From positions 1-44,404 of IMG/VR virus record IMGVR_UViG_3300009537_000039: a stretch of 44,404 bases of DNA; one strand, given 5' to 3'. Within the stretch, counting starts at the first letter, position 1. Each line of letters opens with the position of its first letter. Under the pieces are notes generated by a model. That model was not told the origin of the DNA, did no database searches, and saw only the letters and a list, made by a program, of their open reading frames with translations. Origin of the DNA: a virus. The translations under genes were made by a program, and so were the position numbers. This document shows, piece by piece, positions 3,437 to 37,528 of this stretch.

Positions 3437-6400
3437 ACCAGGTCCTCCGCGTCCACTCCGAGCTCGGAGACTTCGATGTTGAATGCAGGATCAGAACTCG
3501 TCAGGATCGCTCTGAACTCGAATCCTCGCGCCTCGAACTCTGCGCTGTCCAGCCTCTCCCAAGAGCTCCACGTCGGGCTGCTCGAGGCCGGGTCGTCGTC
3601 GGTGTGCCGGACCTCGACCGTGACGTCTCCTTGAGCCTGAGTCGTGCCGTCGAAGTCCTCCCAGGTGTCGATGAGGTCAGTCCTGGAGTCGATCTTGTCG
3701 AGGGGGTTGGTGGAGATGACGGTGAGGCGCGTGGTGAGCCGGTACTTGCCGACGGAGCTGAAGTCGAAGCCGCTGGCGAATCCGTAGGTGCCGCTGACCG
3801 CGACTCCGCCCTCGCCGTCCCACTCGGTAATGTCGTCGACGAGGCCCCAGTCGTCCATGAGCGACGTGCCCTTGAGCTTGAGGACGCCACCGATCGAGAC
3901 CGTGTTGGAGTGCGTGCCTGCGAAAGCCGTGCCCTCGTCGAGTGTGTCGGCGCTCGCGTAGGTCAGGACCGTCGCTTGCTTGGTGGTGACCGTCGCTATG
4001 TCCGCCGAGGCTCGGCCGGTGACGTCGAAGACCCGAGCTAGGTAGGTGCCTGGCTTGAGGGGGAGCAGGGCCCAGCGCGTGCGCGCGAAGGCCGACTCTC
4101 CGATGCCCACGCTCTCCTGCCAGGTCGCCCCAGAGGTCAGCTGTGAGTGCCGGAATCGAACGGTGCCTCCGAAGATGACGTCGAGCTCCTGGGGCTGGTC
4201 CCAGCGGAGGTAAGCTCCGCCTCCCCACGCCGAGATCGTCAGGCCGGATAGCCCGGAGGGCGCGGAGGTCTTGCCGATGATGGTGTTGTTGGAGACCTCC
4301 GACCAGGGGCCAGGCAGGCGCAGGTCCACCACCCAGCGGAGACGGAAGTCCCAGGTCTCCCCGTCGTTGACGTCTCCGATGACGACCCGGTTGTTGGAAA
4401 TCTCGTTGAGCACGACCGAGTCGTAGGGCGCACCGCTGCCTGAGATTCGTCCCTGGACCTCGATCCTCGGGTTGTTGAGCTCGGGGTCGGTGAGGGGGTC
4501 GAAGTCGATGACGACCTGGGTGATGAGCGAATCTCCTGGGCCTCGAGCCAAGGCGCTCTCGTCGCTGACGACGTTGCGAATCACCGGCGCGGGGATCTCT
4601 GGAAGTGGCGTCAGATTGGTCACGAAGGGAGGGATGGTCTCGGTGTCTGCCGTGAACATGGACTCCCGGTAGGGGACCAGCACGACCCGAGCTCGCATCT
4701 CCCCGTCGGGCTCGATGGTCAACACGGAGTAGTCGTCAGTCTCGGAGCCGAGGAGGCCGAAGCCGAAGACGTCGTTGACAGCGATGGCTGCCGAGCCTGA
4801 GACGTTCGGGACGGGGGTTGAGAAAGTCACGGAGGTCTGATCGCCGACCGCGGTGACGATCTGCTCCTCGACCTGGCCGAGGACGTTGCGGATCGAGAGC
4901 CCGTAGTCGGTCGCCGCTTGCATGGTCACCGGCTCGTCGAGCTCGACCGCGGTGACGTTGTTGGAGCCGTCCACGGTCACGGCCTTGATTCGGCCGTAAG
5001 TCAAGCCGGCTTGGAGTACGTCGTGGGTGACCACTACCCAATCGCCTCGATTGTGAGTCAGGAACTCCATATCCTGCTCGACGGTCGAGCGCTCCGGCTG
5101 GAGAATGGCCTGGGCGATTCGGAAGCGGCCGAGCTGATATACCTGGTCCGGTCGGGTCACTCCTGGGAGCTCGAGGCTCTCGTAGATGGTCGCGGTGTCC
5201 TGATCGTACCCGTCCTGGAATACTCGGCGCTCATCGTGGCGGTAGCCCTCGTCCTCGTTGAAGAATTCGATGCGCCAGCCGTGCGGGACGTCCGGGAAGG
5301 CCTTCTCGCCCTTGTAGTTGTAGGAGTTGCGTGGGGTGATGTGGCTGGCTGGAGCCGCCTGGATCTCCTCTCGAACGATCGAAACCTTGCCGTCGGCGTC
5401 TCCTGGGGCAGCTCTGCCCGCGGCTGCTATGTCTGCGAGGACCTCCCACCAGCTCGATTCGAAGTCGTGGACCCGGTTGTAGGTCCAGGACCGAGCGTCG
5501 CAGGTCTCATACCACTCCTGGATCCCATCCAGGTCGAGGCGAGAATCGGGCAGGGGGTTGATGCTCCCGTTGCCTTGCAGGGCCAGGCGGTAGACAGCTG
5601 CCGGATTCTGGATCGGCATGTCGTCGACCCAAGCCGGTGGGCTCGCGGCAGCGTCCCAGTCCTTGCCGATGGAGGTGACGATACCGTTGAGCTCGTCGAT
5701 GATTCCGTTGAGCTGCCCGGTGGCCAGGATGCGCACCGCGGTCGTCGCGACTGGCACCGAGCTGTTGATCGGGTCCTCGTTCTTGAATGACCTGAGCGCA
5801 GTCCAGACCATGTCGTCGACGACGGCATCGTCCGTCGAATCGGCCGTCACGCGCTGCACCCGAACCTCATACTGCCCGCGGGTGGGGACCGACCAGCGGA
5901 AGCCGTGGCGGATGGCGACTGCCTTGGCGTGGGTGAAGGTCACCGTGTCGCCGACCACCCAGGAGTCGGGAACGGTCTTGGCGGTGAAAGTCGGGGTGCT
6001 CCAGCTGACATCGCCGACGGCTCGGAATTGGATCTGGAGGACGACACTCTGATTGGATCGACCGCCTCCGCTCTGGAAGTAGGTCAGGCCTCGAGGGAGG
6101 GTGATGTCGATGGAGAGCTCGTCGGTGCTCGGCTCGGCGGTCCTTGTTTGCCACCCGACTGCCGAGGTGAGCTCGATGGAGAGGTTCTCCTGGTTGACCG
6201 TGTCCGGGTAGAGGGTGAGGGGCGCGTCGGTGGAGTACCCCTCTCGGTGCTCGAGCTCGACCCCATCGAAGTCCGTGATCGGCGTCTCCCCGATCTTGAT
6301 GGACGAGGTGTCGATGGAGATTGGTCCGATGCCCCAGACGAAGACTGCCCGGAAGTAGTGCTTGTCGCCGATGACCTCGGTGTAGGGCTGGGCCCCATAG

Positions 6401-7041
6401 GGAGGGACCATGCGGCGCTTCCCGAGGATGACGGGGATGGGCTGGAAGGGGCGGGCCTGGTTGCGGGCTCCCTCGATGAACGCGGTGGGGCTCTCCCTGG
6501 CCTCGGTCCCGGAGAGCTGCGGGAGGCGAGGGGGGCGGACTGGGGCCACGGCGTTGATGAGCAGGAGTCCGACGGCTCCGACCAAGGCCGTGCCGATCGC
6601 GCCGGCGGTGACACCTCCGAGTACCGCGGTCTGGGCCGAGGTGTTGAAGAGTCCCGCGCCGACGGAGGGGCCGAAGGTGAAGGCCGCCCCCATGACCGCG
6701 ACCGTGAGCAGGATGCGCAGGGGGTTCTTGCCCCCGCCTCCTCCGCCTCCTCCCATGGGCATGACCCGGATCTCTACGTGAGTCCCCTCCTTGGGCTTGA
6801 TGCGGTGCCACCAGTTCCGAGGGACGATCTCGCCGCGGATGAAGATGCAGGCGCTCTCTCGGAGCCACGGATCGGGCTGGAAGAGCTCGAGGATCTGCGC
6901 CAGGGTCGCGCCCTCGGGTACGAGCCTCAGGACGTTCTTGACCTGGAACGGGTGGGGAGCGGCGGTGACACGGACGCCGCGGGCTCCACGGACGATGCTC
7001 TGCCCCGGGAGTTGGTTCCTCGAGTATGCGTCAACGACCAC
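3433..7041 (-). CDS. Tail tip / host specificity protein (TipJ, lambda J-like)
   Basis: A 1202-residue protein of the TipJ/lambda gpJ type, the central fibre hub below the tail tube that determines adsorption. The N-terminus follows the family pattern: a short ubiquitin-like segment with a basic W-W-H region (IVPRNWWHRIKPKEGTHV), then a glycine run (MPMGGGGGGGGKNPLR), then a hydrophobic pair of segments (residues about 107-170). Next come PRLPQLSGTEARE-type and R-x-F-x-P-I-P-V-I-L-G-K-R-R sequences typical of J proteins. The C-terminal half looks like repeated fibronectin-type beta domains. The GTG start at 7041 overlaps the NlpC/P60 gene by 11 bases; the exact start is uncertain. The length is normal for the family. 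Confidence 0.9.
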   Translation of the reverse strand: MVVDAYSRNQLPGQSIVRGARGVRVTAAPHPFQVKNVLRLVPEGATLAQILELFQPDPWLRESACIFIRGEIVPRNWWHRIKPKEGTHVEIRVMPMGGGGGGGGKNPLRILLTVAVMGAAFTFGPSVGAGLFNTSAQTAVLGGVTAGAIGTALVGAVGLLLINAVAPVRPPRLPQLSGTEARESPTAFIEGARNQARPFQPIPVILGKRRMVPPYGAQPYTEVIGDKHYFRAVFVWGIGPISIDTSSIKIGETPITDFDGVELEHREGYSTDAPLTLYPDTVNQENLSIELTSAVGWQTRTAEPSTDELSIDITLPRGLTYFQSGGGRSNQSVVLQIQFRAVGDVSWSTPTFTAKTVPDSWVVGDTVTFTHAKAVAIRHGFRWSVPTRGQYEVRVQRVTADSTDDAVVDDMVWTALRSFKNEDPINSSVPVATTAVRILATGQLNGIIDELNGIVTSIGKDWDAAASPPAWVDDMPIQNPAAVYRLALQGNGSINPLPDSRLDLDGIQEWYETCDARSWTYNRVHDFESSWWEVLADIAAAGRAAPGDADGKVSIVREEIQAAPASHITPRNSYNYKGEKAFPDVPHGWRIEFFNEDEGYRHDERRVFQDGYDQDTATIYESLELPGVTRPDQVYQLGRFRIAQAILQPERSTVEQDMEFLTHNRGDWVVVTHDVLQAGLTYGRIKAVTVDGSNNVTAVELDEPVTMQAATDYGLSIRNVLGQVEEQIVTAVGDQTSVTFSTPVPNVSGSAAIAVNDVFGFGLLGSETDDYSVLTIEPDGEMRARVVLVPYRESMFTADTETIPPFVTNLTPLPEIPAPVIRNVVSDESALARGPGDSLITQVVIDFDPLTDPELNNPRIEVQGRISGSGAPYDSVVLNEISNNRVVIGDVNDGETWDFRLRWVVDLRLPGPWSEVSNNTIIGKTSAPSGLSGLTISAWGGGAYLRWDQPQELDVIFGGTVRFRHSQLTSGATWQESVGIGESAFARTRWALLPLKPGTYLARVFDVTGRASADIATVTTKQATVLTYASADTLDEGTAFAGTHSNTVSIGGVLKLKGTSLMDDWGLVDDITEWDGEGGVAVSGTYGFASGFDFSSVGKYRLTTRLTVISTNPLDKIDSRTDLIDTWEDFDGTTQAQGDVTVEVRHTDDDPASSSPTWSSWERLDSAEFEARGFEFRAILTSSDPAFNIEVSELGVDAEDLV

Positions 7042-7540
7042 GGCGCCAGACCCCCAGGAGCTTCCGCACCCATGGCTCTCGGTCGATTCGCTGGACGACG
7101 GTCAACCCCTCGGCGCCTGAGCCCTTGCTGGCTGCCAGAGCATGGATCATCCGCTTGCGGTCGAGCATGAATCCGACGTGCGTAGGGAGCCCGTTGACAC
7201 GGAGGAGGGCCACGTCCCCCATCCGCGGGATGGCAACGCGTGTCCAGAGGTGGAGCTGAGACTGGACCAGGTCTCCAAGCTCCTGTGTCGCCTCCACGTC
7301 CTTCTCTTCGTACAGTTCCTCGTAGGAGGGCAGGTCGATTCCCAGGACCTCCCGGTGAGCTATGAGGACCAGGCCCCAGCAGTCCCAGCCCTGCCAGCTG
7401 CGGCCGCGTGGAACGAAAGGAACGTCGAGAGCGCGGCGGACGAATTGCCCGATGGGCATTCGGCTCAAACGGGGGCGAGGGGATTCGAGGATCGCCCGGA
7501 TTCCTCCGGAGCTCTCGCCGTTTCCGTCTCGCAGGTCCAT
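7031..7540 (-). CDS. NlpC/P60 family tail-tip peptidase
   Basis: A 169-residue cysteine peptidase of the NlpC/P60 fold, corresponding to the enzyme part of lambda gpK, which cuts peptidoglycan stem peptides during DNA entry. The catalytic Cys is seen in GWDCWGLV (C54) and the catalytic His in LPTHVGFM (H121). A further conserved His lies at H133 (MIHA). The ATG at 7540 has GGATGAG upstream. It sits between DUF1833 and TipJ, the conserved order of the tail-tip module. It is a virion-associated enzyme rather than the lysis endolysin. Confidence 0.88.
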   Translation of the reverse strand: MDLRDGNGESSGGIRAILESPRPRLSRMPIGQFVRRALDVPFVPRGRSWQGWDCWGLVLIAHREVLGIDLPSYEELYEEKDVEATQELGDLVQSQLHLWTRVAIPRMGDVALLRVNGLPTHVGFMLDRKRMIHALAASKGSGAEGLTVVQRIDREPWVRKLLGVWRRGR

Positions 7541-15891: not shown

Positions 15892-16653
15892 TCAGCCCTT
15901 CCCAATCGCACGCCAGCAATCGCCAGCAGCAATCTCATCCATGGTCCATTGATTCGCGGCCAGCCATGCGGCCCACTCTACTCGTCCCGGGGGAGTCCGC
16001 GGGAAGCGGACCTCGGAAACGGAGCCGGAGCCGAGTAGCCGTCCAGCGCAGGGACCCGTGCAGATGACCGGGATGCCTGCGCAGAGGGCCTCGACCGCAG
16101 CGTTGGACGTGTAGGTGACCATGCACCAAGCGCCCTCCAGGTCCTCGGACAGCGGGCAGCCTCGCCCCTCGCCGAGTTCCCTGCACCGCACGCGGATTGG
16201 TCGCCGAGAGTGGCGCTTGATGTCCTCCAGGACCGCTTGCAGCCATCGGTCTGCGTCGAAACCGATGAGCCCCGCGTAAATCCGGTCAGGAGGGCAGACG
16301 AGGATGTGGTCCCCCGTCGTCCTCCATGGCCTGATCTTGACCCCGAGGGCCTCGAACCGAAGACGGCTCGCAGGCGCGGATCGGTGCTCTGTCCCGTCGA
16401 GCTGGAGCGTCCCGCGCGTGATTCGGTAGTAGCGGAAGCGACCGAAGTAGGCGTGATCCCCGTACCACCAGTCTCGGCCCTCGCCGATGACCTGCTGGAG
16501 CTGGCTCCAGAGCGAGGGGGAGCCGAAGAGCGCGACCGGCCCGGGCCGGAGTTGCCCATCCTCGACGAGCAAGCCGCCGCACCCCTCGGAGAAGGCTCGG
16601 CACCATAGAGGCGAGGTCTTCTCCCTGGGAGCCGAGTAGCAGATTGGCCTCAC
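15892..16653 (-). CDS. Putative capsule-type glycosyltransferase (KpsC/KpsS-like)
   Basis: A 253-residue protein with the pattern of the C-terminal half of GT-B glycosyltransferases found in capsule loci: DHILVCPPDRIYAGL, then W-L-Q-A-V-L-E-D-I-K, R-x-R-P-I-R-V-R and the diagnostic MVTYTSNAAVEALCAGIPVICTG (nucleotide-sugar site), ending with W-x-x-A-x-x-Q-W-x-x-D-E-I. The closest pattern I know is the KpsC/KpsS beta-Kdo transferases; with kdsA in the same operon, a Kdo-using enzyme is an attractive inference but is not proven. It overlaps the upstream gene by ATGA. Confidence 0.65.
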   Translation of the reverse strand: MRPICYSAPREKTSPLWCRAFSEGCGGLLVEDGQLRPGPVALFGSPSLWSQLQQVIGEGRDWWYGDHAYFGRFRYYRITRGTLQLDGTEHRSAPASRLRFEALGVKIRPWRTTGDHILVCPPDRIYAGLIGFDADRWLQAVLEDIKRHSRRPIRVRCRELGEGRGCPLSEDLEGAWCMVTYTSNAAVEALCAGIPVICTGPCAGRLLGSGSVSEVRFPRTPPGRVEWAAWLAANQWTMDEIAAGDCWRAIGKG

Positions 16654-17279
16654 GCGAGCTCTCTCTCATAGGTCGAGAACGGGAACGCCCGGACGGCGCT
16701 CTGGGGGTTGGCGTTGACGACCTCGACTCCGTCGGGGAGATGCTCTGCGATCTGGTCGACGGCTCGGGCCCAGGTTGGGTAGTGAACGAATCCGAACTCG
16801 ACCTCCGCGGGCGCGTAGGTGTCGTGCCAGTGGCTTCGCTGCCGGACCGAGGGAGGATTCAGGTCGTAGCCGAGGAGCACGATGCGGCGGGCGCCCTTGA
16901 GAATGGCCAGGCTGATTGCTCCGAATCCCGAGTGCTTGCCGTCGGCGACCGCCTCGGGGTCGAGGCTGACGATCTGGTTGTGGTCTCGGCGCAAGTAGGT
17001 CGCCCCCGGGATCGGGCCGTCCTCGGGGGAGGCGTCCATGGCCAGGTAGACCTCCCGCTCCTTGGCTTGCAGAGCGATCTCCGTGCGGTAGCGCTTGGCG
17101 AAGAGGTTGTCGCGAGAGAAGAGAGCGTCGGAATCGACTTGGAAGGCTGCGGCGTTGACGGAGAGGACGTGCCCCTTGGACCGTAGCCCCTCGAGGTCAT
17201 GACCTCTGAGCGATGGCCCGCCCCCGATGACGAAGACTGGGCGTTCGCTCCACCAAGGGGGGAGGACGCGCCCGGGCAT
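16650..17279 (-). CDS. DUF115 / MptE-like or GT42-like Rossmann-type protein
   Basis: A 209-residue product, counted from the ATG at 17279, which lies 7 bases after the upstream stop; a start at 17315 (221 residues) overlapping that gene is possible. The core begins PVFVIGGGPSLRGHDLE, with S-V-N-A-A-A-F and a D-x-L-F-S-R-D segment, then KHSGFGAISLAILKGARRIVLLGYDLN and a C-terminal V-V-N-A-N-P-Q-S-A-V. The G-G-G-P-S-L and G-x-x-A-I-x-L-A-x-x-x-G motifs are shared by DUF115/MptE-like proteins and GT42 sialyltransferases. It opens the glycan cassette, directly behind the adaptor gene. Activity is unassigned; a sugar transferase is plausible. Confidence 0.65.
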   Translation of the reverse strand: MPGRVLPPWWSERPVFVIGGGPSLRGHDLEGLRSKGHVLSVNAAAFQVDSDALFSRDNLFAKRYRTEIALQAKEREVYLAMDASPEDGPIPGATYLRRDHNQIVSLDPEAVADGKHSGFGAISLAILKGARRIVLLGYDLNPPSVRQRSHWHDTYAPAEVEFGFVHYPTWARAVDQIAEHLPDGVEVVNANPQSAVRAFPFSTYERELA

Positions 17280-17286
17280 AGAGTCG

Positions 17287-17721
17287 CTACAAGGTCGGGT
17301 CGTCCTCGAACTCATCCTCGTTGCCGACGTGCCTGAACTGGTCGCGGCGGGCCCATGGCTCGACCCGGTCGGTGTCCGCGTTCACGGTGTCCTTGCGGTC
17401 CTTGGAGATTCCGCCTGCCAGGGGTGGGGACCTGAGGGATAGCTCCCGGCGCAGGCGACTCGCCATTGCCGTGTAGTTCTCCTGGAGCTCCTTGTAGCTG
17501 ACGTTGAGGTCGCCGACGGACTTGGTGGCCTTGCGGGCGTACTTGGCAGCGAGGCCCTGGGCTGCCGCTATGGCCGCGCCCTCCTTGGTGCCGTGCTCGC
17601 TGATGAGCGAGGCGATGAGCTCGTCGGAGATCTGGGGGTCCGAGGAGTCGATGTCGCCGATGGCGAAGCGGACCCAGTCACGGTCGGAGGTATCAACCGC
17701 CTCGGTGAAGGTCCAGGTCAC
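17287..17721 (-). CDS. Head-tail adaptor protein (gp6-like)
   Basis: A 144-residue protein of the head-tail connector adaptor type (HK97 gp6/SPP1 gp15-like): an N-terminal W-T-F-T-E-A-V, then D-W-V-R-F-A-I-G-D-I-D-S-S-D-P-Q-I-S-D-E-L-I, followed by helices with A-A-A-Q-G-L-A-A-K-Y-A-R and a Y-x-x-M-A-S-R-L-R segment. Adaptors form the ring under the portal. The GTG start has AGGAGG upstream. It is separated from its expected partner, the head closure gene (12578-12910), by the 4.4-kb glycan cassette. Confidence 0.85.
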   Translation of the reverse strand: MTWTFTEAVDTSDRDWVRFAIGDIDSSDPQISDELIASLISEHGTKEGAAIAAAQGLAAKYARKATKSVGDLNVSYKELQENYTAMASRLRRELSLRSPPLAGGISKDRKDTVNADTDRVEPWARRDQFRHVGNEDEFEDDPTL

Positions 17722-18251: not shown

Positions 18252-19286
18252 TTACTCGACGATGCCGCCGAAGAAGTAGCCGAGGTCCGCGGAGACCTTC
18301 TTGAACTGGAAGTAGGACTCGATCTCGATGCGCCGAGCCGTGGTGTTGGCCACGGGCCCTCGCATGATCCGGGTCCCCTCGCTGCTGAGGCCGAGGTTCC
18401 GTCCGTTCCAGGTGAAGGTGTAGCCGGCGCTGGGGGTGTAGCGGCCCGGGTTGGGGGCTCGGTAGGCCAGCAGCGCGTTCTTGCCGCCGATGAACGAGTG
18501 GGCGTTGGTCTGGCCCTCGTCCGCGGTGTTCTGGATCGACTTCATGATGAGAATCTCATCGACCTCGAAGATGGCGGCGATGGCTGCCTTGAGCAGGATC
18601 GCGGGGGAGTCGGGTCCGACGCCTCCGGACTGCGTGATGCGAGCCAGCAGCGCCGCGTGGTTCTTGAGGATCTCCCAGACCTCGTAGCCGACGACGAGGA
18701 CGTTGGGCTCGAAGCCGGTGCTCTGGAGCACGTACTTCTTGCCCTGGGCGACGTCCTTGATCGGGGTCGAGCTGGCGTCGCTCCAGTACACCTTGTCGTT
18801 GTTCGCGGCGCTGGTGGGGTCGAAGGACGCGGACGCGGACGCGGCACCGTCGACGTCGAAGGTCCAGGTGTCCCCGGGGGCACCGGCGGTGAAGTAGTTC
18901 GTCACCCAGAGGTTCTCCCGCAGCAGCAGGTCCTTGAGGGTGACGAAGTCCGTGGCCTCGCGGTCGAGATCGAAGACCTCGTCCGAATCGGCCTCGTCAA
19001 CCTCGTCGATGTCCTTGTGGAACGCGTAGCGCTCGCAGTAGAAATTCGGGGTCGTGTCGACGGTCCACCCGCCACCGGCGCTCTCGGCTCCGGGTCCGCG
19101 GACCTTCATCTCGTCCTTGTTCCAGTACCCTCGGTCGAACTCGGCGTACTTGTTCGACCGCTTGGGGCTGGAGACGTTCGGGAAGACCCGACCGGCGATG
19201 AAGTGGTCCTTGGGCTGCCGGTACGCGACCGACAGGTTGCCGAGCAGGGTGTCGACGTGGAGGTTGTTCCTCACGGGATTCGGCAT
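18252..19286 (-). CDS. Major capsid protein (HK97 fold)
   Basis: A 344-residue capsid protein. The N-terminal part (V-D-T-L-L-G-N-L-S-V-A-Y, F-I-A-G-R-V-F-P-N-V, then R-S-N-K-Y-A-E-F-D) and D-x-x-A-T-D-F-V-T-L-K-D segment of the E-loop/helix region, and the later L-V-V-G-Y-E-V-W-E-I-L-K-N-H helix, fit the family of HK97-fold capsids in DUF2190-containing phages. It is the right size for a capsid protein made without a long delta domain, since a separate scaffold-like gene lies upstream. It has an AAGGAA ribosome binding site and is flanked by DUF2190 and head-tail genes. Confidence 0.88.
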   Translation of the reverse strand: MPNPVRNNLHVDTLLGNLSVAYRQPKDHFIAGRVFPNVSSPKRSNKYAEFDRGYWNKDEMKVRGPGAESAGGGWTVDTTPNFYCERYAFHKDIDEVDEADSDEVFDLDREATDFVTLKDLLLRENLWVTNYFTAGAPGDTWTFDVDGAASASASFDPTSAANNDKVYWSDASSTPIKDVAQGKKYVLQSTGFEPNVLVVGYEVWEILKNHAALLARITQSGGVGPDSPAILLKAAIAAIFEVDEILIMKSIQNTADEGQTNAHSFIGGKNALLAYRAPNPGRYTPSAGYTFTWNGRNLGLSSEGTRIMRGPVANTTARRIEIESYFQFKKVSADLGYFFGGIVE

Positions 19287-19317: not shown

Positions 19318-19701
19318 TCAGTTCCCGGCTGCCTTCTGCAGGTTGCCGAGGTTCAGCTGGACGGAGATGATGGAGCCGTCGCCGGAGGCTGCCTCGAGGG
19401 CCTTGCCTGCGGGGACGTCTCCGGAGCCGATGGTCACGGCCTTGCCGCTCGCGTCCGGGGTGATGAGGGCGCCGGCCGCGACTGCCGCGCCGGCCTCCAC
19501 CTTGGAGATCCCGCCGAAGGCGATGGTGGCGCCTCGGCCCTGGGCCGCGGGAGCGTTCTGGAGCACGCCGTCGGAGCGGGCCCCGGCACCGGCCGCTGCT
19601 ACCTGGCCCGAGCTATTGACCGCCATGAGGCGGTACTGGGAGCTCGAGAGGTCCGCGGAAGCCGGGTGGGTGACGGTCTGGAGCTTTGCTTCGTACGCCA
19701 T
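19318..19701 (-). CDS. DUF2190 family capsid decoration protein
   Basis: A 127-residue protein with the DUF2190 pattern: small, Gly/Ala-rich beta repeats (G-V-L-Q-N-A-P-A-A-Q-G, A-T-I-A-F-G-G-I-S-K-V-E-A-G-A-A-V), then A-x-G-A-L-I-T-P-D-x-x-G-K-A-V and G-K-A-L-E-A-A-S-G-D-G-S-I-I-S-V-Q-L. Some family members decorate capsids as trimers. It precedes the capsid gene and follows the scaffold gene. GGAGGG precedes the ATG at 19701. Confidence 0.85.
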   Translation of the reverse strand: MAYEAKLQTVTHPASADLSSSQYRLMAVNSSGQVAAAGAGARSDGVLQNAPAAQGRGATIAFGGISKVEAGAAVAAGALITPDASGKAVTIGSGDVPAGKALEAASGDGSIISVQLNLGNLQKAAGN

Positions 19702-19707
19702 GATCGT

Positions 19708-20688
19708 TCATCCCTCCTGGTGGGTCTGGACGACGTGCTCGTTGTACGCCGCCTTGTTCTCCCGGATCGCCTTCTCGAGCACCTGATGCTCCGGCATTTC
19801 GGGGTTGGACTTGCGGATCTCCTCCGCGGCCTTCTTGATCGTGTCGGATCCTCCGGTCTCGACGTTCCGGTTGTGGCCGGCGCTCTCGAAGAGCTTCGAG
19901 ACACGGGCCTGCTCGGCGAGCGCCTTGAAGGTCTCGACGATCTCCTCGGCCTGTTCGGGAGCGGCCTTCCGGAGCTTGACGACCTGCTTGGCGAACTCGG
20001 GGACGGAGACGACGGAATCGAGGCTGGCGAACTCGGTCTCCGCCTTGCGGATGTCCTCGGTCTCCTGCATCTTGGCGATCTTCTCGTTCTGATCGTCCAG
20101 GGCCTTGCCGAGCTTCTCGAGCTGGCCGGCCATGTCCGGGCCCTCGTCGGATCCGTCGGACTGGTCGGACTTGGAGAACTTCGACATGAACGCGTAGCGC
20201 TCCTTGTCGCCCATCCGGTCGAATTCCTTCTGGAGGCTCTTCGGGAGCTTCTCGCGGAAGGCGCTCATCTGACCGCCCTTCTCGAGCTGCTCGCGGAGCT
20301 CCGAATTCTCCTTGGTGAGAGTCTGGATCTGCTCACCCTGTTCCTCGAGCCGCTTCGACAGGCTTTCGAGGGTGGGCTGCTTCTCGTTCTTGTCCACGTT
20401 CGCCTCCTGGCCTCCGGGGTCCGGACTCGGATCCCGGTTCTCGGCGCCACCATCGGCGGCCTTGTTCAGTTCGTCGTCCTTCGACACTTCGTCTCCCCAT
20501 TCGATCCCGAGGAACTCAGTCAGGCGCTTGACCAGCCCGACCCTCTCGTCGCGCTCCATCCTATCACACTCGTTTCCTTTGGATGATTCGGAGCCCTTCT
20601 TGGTCAGGACAACCTTGGCGTGCTTGTTGGCAGGACGGTCGACCAGACTGACTTCTTCGACTTCGAGGTCTTCGAGCTTCGTCGCCAT
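19708..20688 (-). CDS. Putative capsid scaffolding protein
   Basis: A 326-residue protein. The start at 20688 overlaps the protease stop (TGATG) with GAGGAAG upstream; an ATG at 20760 would lie within the protease gene. The N-terminus carries the E-V-S-L-V-D-R-P-A-N-K-H-A motif seen at the start of many phage proteins that follow XkdF-type proteases. The rest is charged, Glu/Lys/Gln-rich and coiled-coil (about residues 95-330), as in scaffolds. Its place between protease and DUF2190/capsid, and its composition, support a scaffold that is digested during maturation. Confidence 0.75.
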   Translation of the reverse strand: MATKLEDLEVEEVSLVDRPANKHAKVVLTKKGSESSKGNECDRMERDERVGLVKRLTEFLGIEWGDEVSKDDELNKAADGGAENRDPSPDPGGQEANVDKNEKQPTLESLSKRLEEQGEQIQTLTKENSELREQLEKGGQMSAFREKLPKSLQKEFDRMGDKERYAFMSKFSKSDQSDGSDEGPDMAGQLEKLGKALDDQNEKIAKMQETEDIRKAETEFASLDSVVSVPEFAKQVVKLRKAAPEQAEEIVETFKALAEQARVSKLFESAGHNRNVETGGSDTIKKAAEEIRKSNPEMPEHQVLEKAIRENKAAYNEHVVQTHQEG

Positions 20689-21770
20689 CAGATCTTCCTC
20701 CTGCGGCCGAGCCCTCCGATGGAAAAGCCCGGAAGATTCCCTTGTTTGGCGTCGCTCCAAACGCCATCATCACGAACCTTGACGCCTCCGAACCATCCTA
20801 CCACGCCAAGGTCAATCCCCAGCGCGCTTTGGAGGTCCTTCGAGAATACGATCGACTCGACGACGTCTCCGAGACGTCGGCCCTTGTGCATCAGCTTCGC
20901 AGCACGCGACTCGAGCATGAACTTGTGGGCCGTCTGGAGCAGCTGGTCCTCGTCAATCGCATCGCCCTGGGAGTCGATGACCTGGACGCCGTCTTTCTCG
21001 ATCGGAGAGAACCAGCCATAGACGACTCGGTGCTCCCGGTCGACCTTGACCACGCGTCCGCGGAGGGAGAGGTCGAGGTCTCGGCCGGTCTTGAGGACGA
21101 AGCCCTCCTCCATCGGCTGGTTGCTCGCCTTGATGAACTCGGTCGGTGCCGCGGTCGTCGCGTGCGCCTGCTTCTCGGTCGCGGTGTAGCTCATGATCGG
21201 TCGCCAGATCTCGGGACCGAAGAGCAGCTCTCCGTCGAAGGCCTGGACGCGGCTGATGTCGAGCCCATCGGTCTTGTAGGTGATCGTGACGTGGGGCTTG
21301 TAGCCTTGGTGCCCGTGCTCCGCGCCGGCGGCGACCAACTCCCGGTGTCGATCCTCAAGCTCGGGGGATCGGAAACGGAGGACGACGGCCCCTTCATCAC
21401 CCAGGGAGTGAACGAAGCGAGCTCCCCCGGAAGGTACCCGGACGGTCTCGTGCGGCGACTGAGGCAGCTCGAACCATGGGACCTCCCGACGTGAATAGAC
21501 GATGGTCGCGTGGAGCTTCTCGGGGATGATGACGCTCGTGAACCCTTGCGAGCGGGCCCAGCCGATAAACGCCTTCGGGTTGAGCAGCGGACGGCTCACG
21601 TACAGCGAGTACATCCCGCTCTCCGCTCCCTTCGCCACGCGCTGATCCCAGAAGGAGACACCCACGCGGAAGCGCTGAGCCTGGTCGGGGTAGTCCCGCT
21701 GGGCCTCCGCGCTGGCCATGAAACGGTTGATGAAGGCGTTCCTGCTCTCGCCGGAGCGTGGTCTGGGCAT
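20688..21770 (-). CDS. Acb1-like 2H phosphoesterase fused to XkdF-type prohead protease
   Basis: A 360-residue, three-part protein. Residues 1-45 hold an S-G-E-S-R-N-A-F-I-N-R-F-M motif. Residues about 53-168 match anti-CBASS Acb1-type 2H phosphoesterases, which cut cyclic-oligonucleotide alarm signals: S-L-Y-V-S-R-P-L-L-N, H-A-T (H87, T89; EKLHATIVYSRREVPW), L-G-D-E-G-A-V-V-L-R-F and H-V-T (H160, T162; YKPHVTITYK). Residues 243-360 match XkdF: H-R-V-V-Y-G-W-F-S-P, D-S-Q-G-D, L-M-H (H295), V-E-S (S306), W-F-G-G-V-K, L-P-G-F-S-I-G-G. The start at 21770 overlaps the previous stop. Function as both defence blocker and maturation protease is inferred from motifs. Confidence 0.82.
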   Translation of the reverse strand: MPRPRSGESRNAFINRFMASAEAQRDYPDQAQRFRVGVSFWDQRVAKGAESGMYSLYVSRPLLNPKAFIGWARSQGFTSVIIPEKLHATIVYSRREVPWFELPQSPHETVRVPSGGARFVHSLGDEGAVVLRFRSPELEDRHRELVAAGAEHGHQGYKPHVTITYKTDGLDISRVQAFDGELLFGPEIWRPIMSYTATEKQAHATTAAPTEFIKASNQPMEEGFVLKTGRDLDLSLRGRVVKVDREHRVVYGWFSPIEKDGVQVIDSQGDAIDEDQLLQTAHKFMLESRAAKLMHKGRRLGDVVESIVFSKDLQSALGIDLGVVGWFGGVKVRDDGVWSDAKQGNLPGFSIGGLGRRRKI

Positions 21771-22924
21771 CAGAGACTCTCCCTCCGGTAGCGCTTGGCC
21801 TCGGGGTCGTAGACCAACGGCGAATCGGTGAACATCAGAGCGATGGTACAACGCTCGTTGATGTCGAAGCCTGGCTCTCCGGATTCACCTGGTCCCATAA
21901 CCGGGCCGACGGGAGTCTTGAACGGTTCGTTCAGCCGGACTCCCTCGGGGTTCATCAGCGGAACCGCAGCGTGGTCATCCCGCAGTCGCTCATCGGCGGT
22001 GACGACCCAGATGCGTCGGGTGTCCTCGAGGTCGAGGAGCCCTTGATCGACCGCTTGACCCCAGATTGCCTTCTGGCCTTGCTGGAATGCCCGGTGGGTC
22101 TCAGTTCGGGCTATGTCCATGGCGCGCCGGTTGATGAGTCGCTGGGCGTAGGTCTCGACCAGCTTGTTGACGCGCCCGGAGCTCTCGCCGCCCGCCATGA
22201 AGATCGACCGGGACTGCTGCTGCTCGGTTGCGGAGAGGCGTCGCCGGTGGGGAGGAGTCTCCGACGGGCTGCCGAGCTCCCCGGTCTCGAGCTGGCGTCG
22301 GTAGTTGCCCACGAACCGGGCTTGGTTGGGCGTCAACCCGATTGACTCACGGACCTCTCGGGCGACCTTGCGGAAGGGCCTACCCTCTTCCATTCCGCGT
22401 AGGACCGAGACGCGGATCGCCTCGCGAGAGACATCGTCGATGTGCTTGATCTGGCCGGGAAGGTGGTTGCGCAGATAGGTGACTGCCTCGGGGTTGGTCA
22501 GGTCCAAGCTCGCGACCAGCTTGGCCCGGACCGGGCCGAGCTGCCTTGTTCCGGCCCCGCCCCCGGCCCGCAGCGTATCGCCGAGGACATCGACCATGGA
22601 CGGCTCACCAGGCGTGAGGCCTACTCCTTGGAGCAAGGGCCCGATTCCATCGCCATAGGCCAGGCGGACGGCCTCGCTGATTGCCTGGGATGCGATGGCC
22701 TCGGTCACGAGCTGAAAGGGGAACGATGCCCGCCTCTGCGCCACGGCTCTCCCGAAGGCGGCTGCTACCTGCGGCTCGAAGACTCCGAGGGCCTCTTGGT
22801 AGTCTCGCGCCGCCAGCAGGTCGGACTTCCTCTGCCGGCCTGTGAATCGCAAGCGGCTCGCTGCCCGCTGTCTCCGGCGCCGGCCGGTGTCCTGCTTGCG
22901 AAACCGGACGCGGAATCGGGTCAC
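21770..22924 (-). CDS. Minor head protein (phage Mu F / SPP1 gp7-like)
   Basis: A 384-residue protein. The N-terminus is very basic; the middle is helical. The conserved C-terminal part fits phage head morphogenesis proteins: R-A-M-D-I-A-R-T-E-T-H-R-A, then R-R-I-W-V-V-T-A-D-E-R-L-R-D-D-H-A-A, and a closing E-R-C-T-I-A-L-M motif that in family members forms the zinc-like cluster with C/H. It directly follows the portal gene (ATGA overlap), the usual place. Such proteins are packaged in small numbers with the portal. Confidence 0.85.
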   Translation of the reverse strand: MTRFRVRFRKQDTGRRRRQRAASRLRFTGRQRKSDLLAARDYQEALGVFEPQVAAAFGRAVAQRRASFPFQLVTEAIASQAISEAVRLAYGDGIGPLLQGVGLTPGEPSMVDVLGDTLRAGGGAGTRQLGPVRAKLVASLDLTNPEAVTYLRNHLPGQIKHIDDVSREAIRVSVLRGMEEGRPFRKVAREVRESIGLTPNQARFVGNYRRQLETGELGSPSETPPHRRRLSATEQQQSRSIFMAGGESSGRVNKLVETYAQRLINRRAMDIARTETHRAFQQGQKAIWGQAVDQGLLDLEDTRRIWVVTADERLRDDHAAVPLMNPEGVRLNEPFKTPVGPVMGPGESGEPGFDINERCTIALMFTDSPLVYDPEAKRYRRESL

Positions 22925-24288
22925 AGTGCTGGCTCCTCCTCGGGCTCTGCCTCCTCGGTCGGCTGCCCCTGCGGTCGCGGAGCCCCCATGACCGGCCCTG
23001 TCTCAGGTAGCCCGAGCATCTCCCGAATCTTGACCTCGTCGAGCTCTGACCCGGGCATGATCAGCCCAGCAGCGACCATCTTAACGACGGCGTCGGCCCA
23101 GCGCTGAATGTCGACCTTCTCGATGTCCGAGGGAGTCATGGTGGGCGTCTCCGCAGGATTCCACCCGTTGAGGGCCCAGACCCGCGTGAGGAGGTGTCGA
23201 TTCAGGACCGCGGCGATGGACTTGAGCCAGGCTCCGAGGGCTGTGGCGAAGAGCTCGGTCTTGTCGCTCGAGAGAGCAAAGCTCCCGTGGGCCTGCGAGC
23301 CGAGCATGATGAAGTCGGCGAGGAGCGCCTGGAGGATCTCCCGGGAGTAGCGCATGATGATCTCGTTGGTGTTGAACTGCCGGCTGCCGGCCGCGGACAT
23401 GAGCGAGACCTCGTGCGTCTTGTTCCCTTTTTCGTCGTATTCGAGGGGGAAGGCGATATAGGCCTGCTCGTCGGACTTGAGGTTCTCCCCGACCTTCTGC
23501 CACGCCGCCATCGTCGCTTTGATGTCGTCGGACGCGTCGGCCTTGAAGAGCTCCGGAGGAAGCTCGAACTTGGGGATCCCAGCCAGGTCGCGCTCGGCTC
23601 CTATGGCCTCGGCCTCCTGGATGTTCTTCCGGTACCACCAGCTGACGTAGATCGTCCGAAGGGCGCTCCGGCCCTCGGGGTTCCCGAGCCTCGAGGTGGT
23701 CCGGAATAGCAAGAGCTTCTCGATGGGGATGTAGAGACGACCGAAGCCTCTGCCTGTCGGGACCGAGCCTGCTGGGGGTAGCTGGTAGACACCGCGCAGC
23801 CCATCGTCCTCCTCCTCGAAGTCCCACTCGTCGATGGTCTCCTGGCCTCGAGGGGCGAGCTTGCGGATTCCTATGCGGCCGTCGGTGTGCCGACTCCGTC
23901 GCGTAGGGTCACGTTCCAGCGGGCCGACGCGACGCTTGTAGACGATCTCGAAGAGCGAGAAGCCGTATGCAATCTTGGTCAAGCACTCCGACATGAAGTC
24001 CTCGAAGGTGTGGCTCATGTCCTGGAAGAGCGAGGTGGCGAACTCGGCTTGGAAGACATGGAGAGGGTCCTCGGAGAAAGGCACCGCGTCCCATCCGACG
24101 TTCCGCAGGAGCATCTCCACGGCGAACAGGACCGAGCCGATGACGGCGTCGTTGTCGGCCATCTCCCGGAAAACCCGTCGGCCCTTGAGCCCGTCGAGTT
24201 GCCGCAGCCATTCCTCGTAGATCCGTCCGCCCTGTCGGTTGAGCCCGGTCAAGCCCAGCTCGCCCAGCCGTCGGCCCCTCGGTGCCAC
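22921..24288 (-). CDS. Portal protein (gp29/DUF935-like)
   Basis: A 455-residue portal protein of the Mu gp29-like/DUF935 type: R-E-M-A-D-N-D-A-V-I-G-S-V-L-F-A-V-E near the start, R-S-A-L-R-T-I-Y-V-S-W-W-Y-R-K-N in the middle, an I-M-R-Y-S-R-E-I-L-Q-A-L-L-A-D-F segment and the P-x-T-P-S-D-I-E-K-V-D-I-Q-R-W-A-D-A-V region near the C-terminus. Portals form the dodecameric ring through which DNA enters and leaves. The GTG start at 24288 has GGAGGG upstream. It follows TerL with a 30-base gap. Confidence 0.88.
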   Translation of the reverse strand: MAPRGRRLGELGLTGLNRQGGRIYEEWLRQLDGLKGRRVFREMADNDAVIGSVLFAVEMLLRNVGWDAVPFSEDPLHVFQAEFATSLFQDMSHTFEDFMSECLTKIAYGFSLFEIVYKRRVGPLERDPTRRSRHTDGRIGIRKLAPRGQETIDEWDFEEEDDGLRGVYQLPPAGSVPTGRGFGRLYIPIEKLLLFRTTSRLGNPEGRSALRTIYVSWWYRKNIQEAEAIGAERDLAGIPKFELPPELFKADASDDIKATMAAWQKVGENLKSDEQAYIAFPLEYDEKGNKTHEVSLMSAAGSRQFNTNEIIMRYSREILQALLADFIMLGSQAHGSFALSSDKTELFATALGAWLKSIAAVLNRHLLTRVWALNGWNPAETPTMTPSDIEKVDIQRWADAVVKMVAAGLIMPGSELDEVKIREMLGLPETGPVMGAPRPQGQPTEEAEPEEEPAL

Positions 24289-24318: not shown

Positions 24319-25803
24319 TCACGGCCGACGGCTGGAACGCTTGGTGCCTCCTGCGGGAGGTCCCGCAGGCCCGCGCGAGCGCTTTCGCTTCTCCCGTATT
24401 CTACGAAGTGCTTGACTGGTCATATCGACCTGATCCTTCCACGCAGAGTCAGGAAACGTAGTCACCTCATCGAGATATGGCTTGAGCCAGGGCGGCTGAG
24501 CCTTGGGCAACCAGAGATTCCCTGCCTGAATGTACGACGCCTCTGCCTCAGCGCGGGTGATCTTATCCAGCCGGCCTGGGTTGAAGGGCACTACAGGGAG
24601 ATCTGTCGTACGCCGGAGAATCTGAATCGCCTGCTGACCGGAGGACTTGTCCTCGATGAGCACCTCGGTGGGGTTCTCCTCCTCGGCGAGCCGGATCATG
24701 GCCTCCACCAAGTCAACGATGTCGAGGCGTGCGACGAAGACGTGCCAGAGCTCGACGTGATCCTTGAAGACGCCGAAGGTGCCACAAACGCTCGGATCAT
24801 TGCGCTCCTGCGGTTTGGAGGCGGTGTCCCAAGACTGGAGGACGTAGAGCGGGTCCGCGCTACGCTCACAGTACTCGTTGACGAACCACTCCCCCTTGAT
24901 AATCGAGCCCTCCCGAGGTGTCGGCCGCTGCTGATAGAGCGCGAGCCAGGAGGGGGCTGTCATACCGCCGCGAAACTCCTCGAGCATCGCCAGAGGCTTG
25001 ATCTCAGGGAAGAGCGGCTCCCCCTCCTTGCGGTGCTCCTCATCTCGCTCTGCAATCGCCGCGTATGTGACCACCTTGACGTCGTTCCGATGCTTGAGCA
25101 GACGCCCGGTCGGGTCGTCGAGATGCCAGCGCGTAGCGATGACAAGCATGCCTGCCTTCTTGGAGAACCTGGTCATGAAGTCGTCGTTGAACCAGAGCCA
25201 GGTCTTGTCCCGAATAGTCTTACTCTCGGCCTCCTCACGGCCCTTGATCGGGTCGTCGATAACCCCCAGGTCCATGGACTCGCCGACGATGGCGCCGCGG
25301 ACGGTGGTGTTTCGGAAGTAGCCTTGCCAGCCGGCCATCTCCAAGACCGCGGAGTTACGCCGGGGCTTGCCGGCCTGGGTAACGACCTGCTCGCCGCAGA
25401 TGCGCGTCCTGGGGAATGCCCACTTGAAGCGGGCCGAGTCGAAGATGCGTTGGAGTTGCAAATTCGCTCGAACGCCAAGAGCGTCGGAGACCGAAGCGTA
25501 GAAGGTCCGAAGACTAGGGTCGCGGCCGAAACACCAAGCGATGAAGTAGACGATGAGCCTACTCTTCCCGTGCTGCGGCGGGGCGGCGAAGACGAGCTTG
25601 GGCCAGCGCCCGGCAACCATATCCTCGTAGAACTCTTGTAGATGCCCGGCCGCGTCCTCTTGCCACCAGCACTTGATGACGCCCGGGTCCATGTAGCAGA
25701 AGAACTCCCAGAAAACCCTGCGCACAAGCGCCCGTTTGATCTTCTTGCGGTCGAGCAAGGCGGGGTTGATCTCTCGGGCCCTATTCGGCACCGCCACCTT
25801 CAC
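24319..25803 (-). CDS. terL: Terminase large subunit
   Basis: A 494-residue packaging motor. ATPase: Walker A AAPPQHGKS (residues 73-81), Walker B L-G-V-I-D-D (D183, D184), with the helix around F-N-D-D-F and coupling segment V-I-A-T-R-W-H-L-D-D. Nuclease (RNase H fold): Q-S-W-D-T-A (D326), L-I-E-D-K-S (E384, D385) and W-K-D-Q-V-D (D457, D460). The GTG start has GGAGGAGG upstream and overlaps TerS by 23 bases. The protein ends in a basic, Pro/Gly-rich tail. Length is normal. Confidence 0.95.
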   Translation of the reverse strand: MKVAVPNRAREINPALLDRKKIKRALVRRVFWEFFCYMDPGVIKCWWQEDAAGHLQEFYEDMVAGRWPKLVFAAPPQHGKSRLIVYFIAWCFGRDPSLRTFYASVSDALGVRANLQLQRIFDSARFKWAFPRTRICGEQVVTQAGKPRRNSAVLEMAGWQGYFRNTTVRGAIVGESMDLGVIDDPIKGREEAESKTIRDKTWLWFNDDFMTRFSKKAGMLVIATRWHLDDPTGRLLKHRNDVKVVTYAAIAERDEEHRKEGEPLFPEIKPLAMLEEFRGGMTAPSWLALYQQRPTPREGSIIKGEWFVNEYCERSADPLYVLQSWDTASKPQERNDPSVCGTFGVFKDHVELWHVFVARLDIVDLVEAMIRLAEEENPTEVLIEDKSSGQQAIQILRRTTDLPVVPFNPGRLDKITRAEAEASYIQAGNLWLPKAQPPWLKPYLDEVTTFPDSAWKDQVDMTSQALRRIREKRKRSRGPAGPPAGGTKRSSRRP

Positions 25804-34038: not shown

Positions 34039-34118
34039 GGGAAAGCTGGGCGGGTCCCAGAGCTGAGTGGACAGCATGGCTGCGCACGAAGCACCCCGGT
34101 TCGACTCCGGGCTTTCCC
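34039..34118 (+). ncRNA. tRNA-like element (degenerate tRNA)
   Basis: An 80-base sequence with a perfect 7-bp acceptor-like stem (GGGAAAG with CTTTCCC), a perfect T-arm (CCCGG, loop TTCGACT, CCGGG) and a D-arm-like AGCTGAGTGGACAGC. An extra hairpin (CTGGG-CGGGT-CCCAG) lies between the acceptor and the D-like arm, and the anticodon arm is poor, so it may not be a working tRNA; no CCA is encoded. It ends 3 bases before the polymerase ATG. Alternatives: a relict tRNA, an attachment-site copy of a tRNA end, or an RNA-processing signal. Confidence 0.45.
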
Positions 34119-34121
34119 TTT

Positions 34122-37100
34122 ATGTACCACCTAGACTTTGAAACGCGTTCCGAGCTCGACATCAAGGTTGGCGCTTGGGCCTACTCCGTCCACCCGAGCA
34201 CGGAGGTTCTCTGCGTGTCCGTGGCGCTAGGAGACGAACGGCCTCTCGTCGTAACTTGCCTGGATGAATTCGAGGACGTGCACGATGCCTTCCAGCATCT
34301 CACCGACGAGGTCCATGTCCCTGTTGGGGCTCACAACGCCTTTTTCGAACGGTGCATCTGGGAGAACGTCATGGTGGCGCGGCACGGCCAGCCGCCGATT
34401 GACCCGGAGCGCTGGCGGTGCTCCGCGGCGCTCGCGGCGAACTTCGGGCTCCCTCGCAAGCTGGAGATGGTCGCCAAGGCCCTCGGGCTCGCGGAGCGCA
34501 AGGACGAGGAAGGTCACGCGCTCATGCTCCGAATGAGCAAGCCGCGCAAGCCGACGGCCGCGGAGCGTGGCAGGGGTCAGGCGGAGCCGGACCCTTTCTG
34601 CGGAGAATGCCGCGGCCTTGGGGTAGCCCCGAGCATCATAGGGCATCGCTGTTCGTGCACATCTCTTAACGGTCCTCTCTGGTATGGCTCCCGCGAGGAC
34701 CTGGAACGCCTCGCCGCTTACTGCGTGCAGGACGTAGTCGTTGAGCGCGAGATCACTCGGCGCCTCGGGGAGCTCTCCCCGATGGAGCTCGATGTCTGGC
34801 ACGCCGATCAAGCGGTGAACGCCTCGGGCGTGCCCGTCGATCTGGACCTCTGCCGCGGCGCGCTCAAGATCAAAGCCGAGCTCGACGCCCGGGCCAACGA
34901 GGAGCTCTGCGAGATCACTGGCGCCGGGAAGGGCGACAAGACGCTCCCGACGCGGCACACCCAACGCGACCGCATCGTCAAGTGGGTCCGGTCTTGCGGG
35001 TGGGAGCTCCCGAACGCTCAGAAGGAGACCCTCGACGAGGCGCTCGACGGCAAAGGGCTCAAGCGCATTGGTGGAGGGAAGCGCGAGGAGGTCACTGGCT
35101 CGGTGCGGCGCGTCCTGGAGATTCGCCGCGCAGCCTCCAAGGCGAGCACGGCGAAGTATCAGGCGGCGATCGACCGGGCGACACGAGATCGGTGGTCTAT
35201 CGGACCCAACGGGCCACAGGGAGCCATCCCAGACCAGGATCGTGTTCGCGGCTCGCTCATCTACTACGGCGCCCACACCGGCAGGTGGGCGGGCTCGGGG
35301 CTGCAGACTCAGAACATGCCGCGGGACAGCCCCCCGAAAGGCGAGTACGAGTTCGCCTGCAGTCTGGTGTCGGCCGGAGACCTGCAGCGGCTTGAATTCT
35401 TCTACCCGGAGCCCATGGCGATTCTCAAGTCCTGCGTCCGAGGGATCATCCGAGCGCCGGGCGGCAAGGTGTTCCTGGTCGGCGACTACTCTGCCATCGA
35501 AGCGCGGGTAGTCTTCTGGCTGGCCGGGGAACTACGCGGGCTCTCGCTCTACCGGGCCTATGACAAGGCGCCACGAGAAGCGCTGGAGCCCTACTGCTGG
35601 ATGGCGTCCAGGATTTTCGGGCGCGACGGCCTGGAGATCCAGCGGGCCAACCGCGACGGCGACAAGGAGGGCGAGGAGCAACGCTTCGTCGGCAAGTCTT
35701 CGGTCCTCGGCTGCGGCTTCGGGCTAGGGCCGCGACGCTTCCGAGATCAGTACGACGTCGCAGGCAAGCTGGCCAAGCTGGCGGTGAAGGCATACCGCGA
35801 GAGCTTCCCTGCCGTGCCGGACATGTGGACCGAGCTCGACGAGGCGTCCGTCGAGGCGGTGCGAGGCAGCGCTCGGCCGATCCCGACCTGCGGAGGGCGC
35901 ATCTTGTGGGGGATGAGGGACGGCTTCCTCTGCGCGCGTCTCCCCTCGGGCCGGATGCTTCGCTACCCCGAGCCCCGCGTCGGTTTGAACCGCGTGACCA
36001 TCGAGACGGTTGACGGTGAAGAGCGTACCTTCGAGCGCATCGCTGTCAACTACAAGACAGCGGACAAAGGCCAGTGGCGCCGGACGTGGACGTGGGGAGG
36101 GACGCTCTGCATCGAGGAGGGCACGCTGGTAGTAACCGACCACGGTCCCGTGCCGATCGAGAGAGTCGAGCCCTCCATGCTGGTGTGGGATGGTAAGGAG
36201 TGGGTGACCCACTCCGGGTCGATCTTGCAGGGCTACAAGGACACAGTCGAAGCCTACGGCGTCCGTATGACGCCTGACCACAGGGTTCTCACTGTCGAAG
36301 GGTGGAAGCGTGAATCCGAGAGCAAGGGACTTGACCGGGCTCCGTGCCGGCTACCTGACGGCTACTCGTTACGCGGGGAGCAATGGGAGGAGATCGCTCT
36401 GGCTCCTCCGGTGCGACTGCGGAAACACTCTGGTTCGAGAGGCCTCAGAGTTCATGAAGTCCGTGAAGCGCAAGCGTCGATCTTCCTGCGGCTGCATTCT
36501 CTCCAAGACCTTGAGCGAGTACCGCACGACGCACGGCATGACGAAGCACTCGGCCTTCGCGGTCTGGTCGTCTATGAAGCGGCGCTGCCTCGACCCCTCG
36601 CACCCGGCGTACAAGAACTATGGTGGCCGTGGCATCTCGGTGTGCGAGCGCTGGCGCGACTCCTTCGAGAACTTCTGGAGCGACATGGGCGGGACCTACG
36701 AGCGCGGGCTCTGCATCGACAGAGTCGACAACGACGGGGACTACACCCCGGAGAACTGCCGCTGGACCACCTACCAGGAGCAGGCACGCAACCGTCGAGG
36801 AACCGTCTTGATCCCTACGCCGTACGGACCTATGCACATGGCGGATGCCGCGACTCGGAGCGGAATCTCTCGTTCAACGCTCTACTACCGAAGAGACCGG
36901 GGAGTGCCCGCGGATCGGATGTTCGATCCGCCCGACCCGTCTACGACCTGGTAGACTGTGGGCCTCGCCGTCGCTTCGTGGTCTTGGATAAACGAGGCAA
37001 GCCGCTGATCGTCCACAACTGCGAGAACGTGGTGCAAGCCGTCGCCCGGGACCTACTCGCTGACGCGCTGGTCCGTTCGCACAAGCTACTCGCGCCTCAC

Positions 37101-37268: not shown

Positions 37269-37528
37269 CCAATCGCTCCGAGGACTTCCTGCAGCACCAA
37301 GCGATCGCGCTCGAGGATGAAGACCGCGGCGCCTGCACCTGCTCGCGTTGCGCCCGTTTTGCTGGCGGTGCCGAGCGCGTGCACGAGGCCCTCGGGGCAG
37401 CGATCAAGGACCTGCAGGTGAAGGAGTGGAGGGAACGTGAACGTCGACAAGGGGCCGAGGGGAACGTCCGCCGGTTACGCCGCGAAGTGCTCCGGCTTCG
37501 AGACAGAATCGAGGAGCTGAAAAAATGA
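37265..37528 (+). CDS. Small coiled-coil protein with Cys motif
   Basis: An 87-residue protein beginning at the ATG that overlaps the polymerase stop (ATGA); the longer reading from 37175 lies inside the polymerase gene. It has a C-T-C-S-R-C segment (three Cys) near residue 25-31 and a strongly charged coiled-coil C-terminus (R-R-L-R-R-E-V-L-R-L-R-D-R-I-E-E-L-K-K). A zinc-binding helical accessory protein is possible. The next gene starts at its stop (ATGA). Confidence 0.6.
   Translation: MTNRSEDFLQHQAIALEDEDRGACTCSRCARFAGGAERVHEALGAAIKDLQVKEWRERERRQGAEGNVRRLRREVLRLRDRIEELKK

Follow-up and report, generated by a model that had tools for sequence, protein, structure and literature searches.

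An Acb1-type 2H phosphodiesterase domain joined to an XkdF-type head maturation protease in a virus genome

The window analyzed here is a stretch of 44,404 nucleotides that corresponds to positions 1 to 44,404 of the IMG/VR virus record IMGVR_UViG_3300009537_000039. It contains a head gene cluster in the order terminase large subunit (TerL), Mu-type portal, MuF-like protein, Acb1-XkdF fusion, scaffold-like protein, small head protein, and major head protein (Table 1). The fusion is encoded by a single ORF with a GGAGG Shine-Dalgarno sequence directly upstream of its ATG. The virus genome also encodes a J-type tail protein, a tape measure protein, a DNA polymerase, a primase, and a helicase; no integrase was seen among the subset of virus genes scanned.

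Table 1. Features of the head gene cluster and of the Acb1-XkdF fusion (coordinates in the window)
Feature	Coordinates	Strand	Remarks
Terminase large subunit	24319..25803	minus	
Mu-type portal protein	22921..24288	minus	Without Acb1 domain
MuF-like head morphogenesis protein	21770..22924	minus	Stop overlaps the start of the fusion
Acb1-XkdF fusion ORF, 360 aa	20688..21770	minus	ATG at 21770, TGA at 20690-20688
N-terminal segment, residues 1-54 (FINRFM...YPDQAQRF...FW)	21609..21770	minus	Partly low-confidence helices
Acb1 2H phosphodiesterase domain, residues 55-192	21195..21608	minus	PF23474 and fold
First HxT motif, H87-A-T89	21504..21512	minus	
Second HxT motif, H160-V-T162	21285..21293	minus	
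Linker, residues 193-239	21054..21194	minus	Predicted disordered
XkdF / Peptidase_S78_2 maturation protease domain, residues 240-356	20703..21053	minus	H295 and S350 conserved
Scaffold-like gene downstream of the fusion, 326 aa	19708..20688	minus	Own AGGAGG at 20702-20697
EVEEVSLVDRPAN strand motif of the split protease	20626..20664	minus	
Small head protein	19318..19701	minus	PHROG 673
Major head protein	18252..19286	minus	PHROG 1005

A preliminary description of this DNA had placed an Acb1 domain with two HxT motifs ahead of an XkdF protease in one polypeptide. This arrangement is borne out by Pfam profiles, the fold, and the catalytic residues, and the motifs lie exactly where they had been assigned. 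The Acb1 part matches PF23474 with E = 2.2e-31 and 109 bits, four times the curated Pfam cutoff of 27 bits, and the protease part matches the XkdF profile PF14550 (E = 3.2e-14, 53.5 bits, cutoff 24 bits). The HxT pair alone is weak evidence, because at least two such motifs also arise in approximately 6% of shuffles of the fusion protein; the protein also has H107 and H203. The profile matches are decisive. Searches with PADLOC and NCBIfam yielded no relevant match.

The full-length AlphaFold2 model, built from 23 fusion proteins, has pLDDT values of approximately 90-98 for most of the Acb1 core, below 50 for linker residues 194-236, and mostly 70-90 for the protease. Comparison of a predicted structure with Acb1 was a check named beforehand, and the model indeed has the 2H fold in its Acb1 variant: the Acb1 half is closest to FBB1 Acb1 (7T26; Z 16.5, rmsd 1.9 Å, 132 residues), with Z 14.8 for BCSR5 Acb1 and Z 10.9 for LigT. 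The two HxT pairs align in register with H44/T46 (H87/T89) and H113/T115 (H160/T162) of T4 Acb1, and the position of T4 Y12, aromatic in all 167 Acb1 domains, is occupied by Y57. The T4 and FBB1 enzymes (7T26/7T27) thus share the 2H fold, the complete tetrad, and the stacking tyrosine with the fusion, but they are free cytoplasmic proteins, whereas the Acb1 of the window is fused to a late head protease. The Acb1 part of the fusions is under purifying selection (dN/dS 0.10 in the closest pair), and the fused domain is very probably catalytic. Repeated attachment to head proteins and variable base-contact residues could also be expected of a passenger domain that is retained for structure or assembly and whose catalysis is irrelevant. 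Such a scaffold role would not conserve catalysis, however, and is very unlikely given an HxT tetrad that is complete in 164 of the 167 domains across many partners.

The ligand contacts of T4 and FBB1 Acb1 have been described (PMC9117128). The residues compared here, Y12, W74, F107, E141, and W147, are known base contacts of the T4 protein and not family-wide invariants. In the fusion, W74, F107, and the adenine contact E141 correspond to H121, H154, and R190, respectively; no tryptophan matches the lid residue W147, and Y195 adjoins that position. The invariant E187 was considered as the equivalent of E141 and ruled out by numbering, as it corresponds to T4 E138. Histidine is found at the 107 column in 43 of the 167 domains, and glutamate at the 141 column in only 101, so E141 is not family-defining. 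Because several T4 contacts are changed and these columns vary, the substrate preference of the fusion may differ from that of T4 Acb1. The altered contacts would also suit action on RNA ends or another nucleotide instead of CBASS signals, with 2',3'-cyclic phosphate RNA and 2'-5' oligonucleotides as candidate substrates. For 2H domains fused to MuF or portal proteins, Iyer et al. (2017; PMC5512222) suggested RNase activity or the breakdown of immune nucleotides, and LigT-like folds are similar to the Acb1 half as well. We consider a non-CBASS substrate quite unlikely, since the closest solved structures and the family are Acb1, well ahead of LigT, and no RNA ligase partner was present among the genes scanned.

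The catalytic histidine and serine of the protease half are invariant in all 23 fusions. Modeled alone from 44 sequences (pLDDT 80.9), this half is predicted to have a herpesvirus-type assembly protease fold, being closest to T4 gp21 (Z 10.2, rmsd 2.3 Å, 108 residues), with herpesvirus proteases next. The gp21 match came from a second structural alignment; Foldseek by itself gave no significant match for the XkdF half. The usual C-terminal strand of the protease (VEEVSLVDRPAN) is absent from the fusion ORF and instead opens the next ORF (at 20688), which begins with the strand motif EVSLVDRPAN, continues as a coiled-coil-rich scaffold-like region, and overlaps the fusion ORF by TGATG. A programmed frameshift into the scaffold gene is possible but not needed, as the AGGAGG and the TGATG account for reinitiation. 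Of 78 XkdF relatives that lack Acb1, 72 show the same protease/scaffold split, as does Roseobacter phage CRP-6 (gp55/gp54), where the SLVDRPAN strand of an XkdF-type protease likewise lies on the scaffold gene. Thus, the split is a trait of the XkdF subfamily, not of the fusion. In CRP-6, however, the N-terminal slot that Acb1 fills in the fusion holds a small, unrelated domain. In XkdF proteases without Acb1 (L167-L246), the N-terminal segments vary, by eye including ChaB-like and small basic domains, so this end of XkdF looks like a variable slot.

The Acb1-XkdF fusion is real and recurrent. Besides the window ORF, at least 22 other distinct ORFs, all in viral contigs from unrelated samples, have this effector domain fused to the same virion protein, with Acb1 ahead of XkdF. 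Pfam detects Acb1 in 23 of the 23 fusions, PF14550 in 21, and ChaB in seven. With the window protein as the sole query, no relative was found in viral contigs, and alignments were therefore required as the query. A scan of genome contigs found no full fusion, and no isolate carrying one was found. The lack of an isolate with the full fusion, together with the origin of the window from one metagenomic record, could point to a chimeric contig or a frame artefact that falsely joined two genes. This explanation is hardly credible and in effect refuted, because the relatives carry the same fusion with the same domain order, and one of them (L048) also shares the N-terminal segment (residues 1-54). 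In the Acb1 tree, the XkdF label takes 11 changes, and well-supported branches force at least two, with much of the tree unresolved; this tree counts L124 in the XkdF group despite the lack of a Pfam match to its protease.

XkdF is one of several partners. The scans used patterns from portal-type Acb1 and kept the best 80 matches, so T4-like free Acb1 is under-sampled, and partner proportions hold for this Acb1 branch and not for all Acb1. In this sample, 123 of 167 Acb1 domains are portal C-termini. The partners of the sampled relatives are head-interior proteins, namely portal, MuF, XkdF, S78 protease, and DUF2213. Pfam profiles of 71 long ORFs gave Acb1 in all 71, Phage_portal_3 in 51, Portal_Mu in 16, and Phage_portal in five. 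The preliminary description had regarded the position in the capsid operon as notable; the location is real, yet it is usual for this branch. The portal of Pam3 (8HDS) and the DUF1073-portal-Acb1 proteins likewise have a domain of the Acb1 family on a capsid-interior protein encoded in the head operon, but on the portal C-terminus and not on the maturation protease. Cultured phages with an Acb1-portal protein include Rhizobium RHEph and Pseudomonas psageB2. The 8HDS structure was not among the best 50 Foldseek matches, perhaps because its Acb1 part may not have been modeled.

Other examples extend the range of partners. Portal, Acb1, and XkdF form one 851-aa ORF in L102, and Acb1, a divergent protease, the SLVD strand, and a scaffold-like tail form one chain in L067 and L124; the L067 polypeptide (4416-7526; 1,037 aa) begins with NUDIX, ahead of the Acb1, protease, and scaffold-like regions. 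Acb1 is joined to an HK97-type S78 protease in L031, to DUF2213 in L043 and L264, and to a MuF-like domain in L034 and L119. The other cargo-type domains on the same proteins are NUDIX, ADP-ribosyltransferase, and PBECR. The order portal-MuF-Acb1-XkdF-scaffold-MCP is kept in a Rubellimicrobium prophage that encodes Acb1 as an ORF of its own, flanked by MuF and XkdF. None of the sampled loci has two Acb1 ORFs. CD-NTase exceeded the cutoff in nine of 31 host genomes of Acb1 prophages, a count that, with no baseline, is uninformative.

Several observations on individual loci and records can be added. Long ORFs of L041 (3120-7673), L019, and L147 combine Acb1 with ADP-ribosyltransferase (by Pfam in L041 and L147, by eye in L019), and the L041 ORF also contains intein-like and MuF-like regions by eye. 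In the Rubellimicrobium prophage L282 (6249-7283), Acb1 is joined to a Gp49-like (RelE-type toxin family) domain, and this fusion adjoins a MuF protein that looks intein-interrupted. Two records labeled "prohead protease" with similarity to Acb1 (Edwardsiella ZHS and DSS3P8) were rejected as fusions; they are short standalone Acb1-like proteins of approximately 200 and 150 aa, and the label therefore looks wrong.

The presence of Acb1 on several head proteins of related phages suggests an enzyme that is either produced together with the assembling capsid or carried along with it. As every partner is located in the procapsid interior, the simplest expectation is that Acb1 is incorporated there too. 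We tentatively favor, at a little under even confidence, the reading that the Acb1-type 2H phosphodiesterase is an anti-CBASS cargo on the head maturation protease, packaged and delivered. For the fused domain, we infer activity, substrate, cleavage, packaging, and delivery as follows. The fusion would be made late, together with portal, MuF, and scaffold, and would enter the procapsid interior along with the protease. Self-processing of the protease, most plausibly in the disordered linker, would free or retain the Acb1 domain, which would then cleave the cyclic di- or trinucleotides that serve as alarm signals in CBASS-type immunity; freed or carried, the domain would reach the next host. 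Several points count against such cargo. Little HK97-type protease is left after maturation, T4 Acb1 does its work unattached in the cytoplasm, and several of the ligand contacts are changed. A portal subunit normally remains in the particle, and a portal-borne Acb1 would require cleavage to leave it, which counts against simple delivery.

Another scenario, not considered in the preliminary description, is action of the fused Acb1 in the producing cell, with virion delivery incidental. Both the prohead protease and heads under assembly can turn on CBASS cyclases, and linkage to the protease would make a signal-destroyer appear when and where the CBASS trigger does, and in matching dose. According to later accounts of Richmond-Buccola et al. 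(2024), the prohead protease of phage Bas13 binds to EcCdnD12, a type I cyclase, stimulates it, and suffices for CBASS-dependent death (PMC11312562, PMC12409349). Because a phage prohead protease is thus reported, also in PMC12072042, to activate a CBASS cyclase, the fusion would put a signal-destroyer on a known trigger. CBASS also acts late (PMC9117128), and the proteases that carry Acb1 belong to two distinct families, XkdF and S78. On the other hand, a diffusible signal requires neither covalent linkage for timing nor proximity; Acb1 is found far more often on portals than on proteases; and the trigger result, as relayed in these accounts, comes from another phage and another protease. This scenario is possible, at less than even confidence. 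The narrower claim that Acb1 is tied to the prohead protease because the protease itself triggers CBASS, as a built-in antidote acting at the assembly site, is rather unlikely. Packaging and delivery with the virion are slightly preferred over action in the producing cell only, which is about as good an explanation.

Acb1 has so far been studied as a free cytoplasmic enzyme. Packaging and injection of effectors against oligonucleotide signaling were proposed by Iyer et al. (2022; PMC9503650), who also described Nudix fused to a capsid-processing peptidase. Like the fusion, the polyvalent, 2H-MuF, and 2H-portal proteins have an effector on a head protein and are proposed to be packaged against nucleotide immunity. 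In the texts of the 2017 and 2022 papers, 2H occurs on MuF and portal, whereas the capsid-processing serine peptidase occurs with Nudix only. Because packaging of 2H-portal and 2H-MuF proteins was already in print, the delivery idea of the preliminary description is partly anticipated. In the openly accessible article text searched, no fusion of 2H or Acb1 to the maturation protease is described, and the protease is, to that extent, a new attachment point within a known theme.

The whole Acb1 branch is hard-wired to the capsid interior via at least five kinds of head protein, and the protease attachment ties it to a protein class that secondary accounts report to switch CBASS on. The fusion bears on two questions about phages: do their virions deliver anti-signal enzymes, and do they shield their own immune triggers?

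Elsewhere in the window, the match of the DNA polymerase gene (34122-37268; 1,048 aa) to the polymerase profile is broken up into pieces, and an endonuclease-family match at aa 686-729 suggests an intein or a similar insertion. A DNA methyltransferase (37525-38718) is also matched in separated pieces (approximately aa 63-140 and 317-374), possibly reflecting a second insertion. A lone tRNA-Cys (GCA; 34039-34119) ends just ahead of the DNA polymerase start codon, and a sialyltransferase-like protein (16650-17315; PHROG 4603, E = 6e-28) is encoded amid the structural genes.
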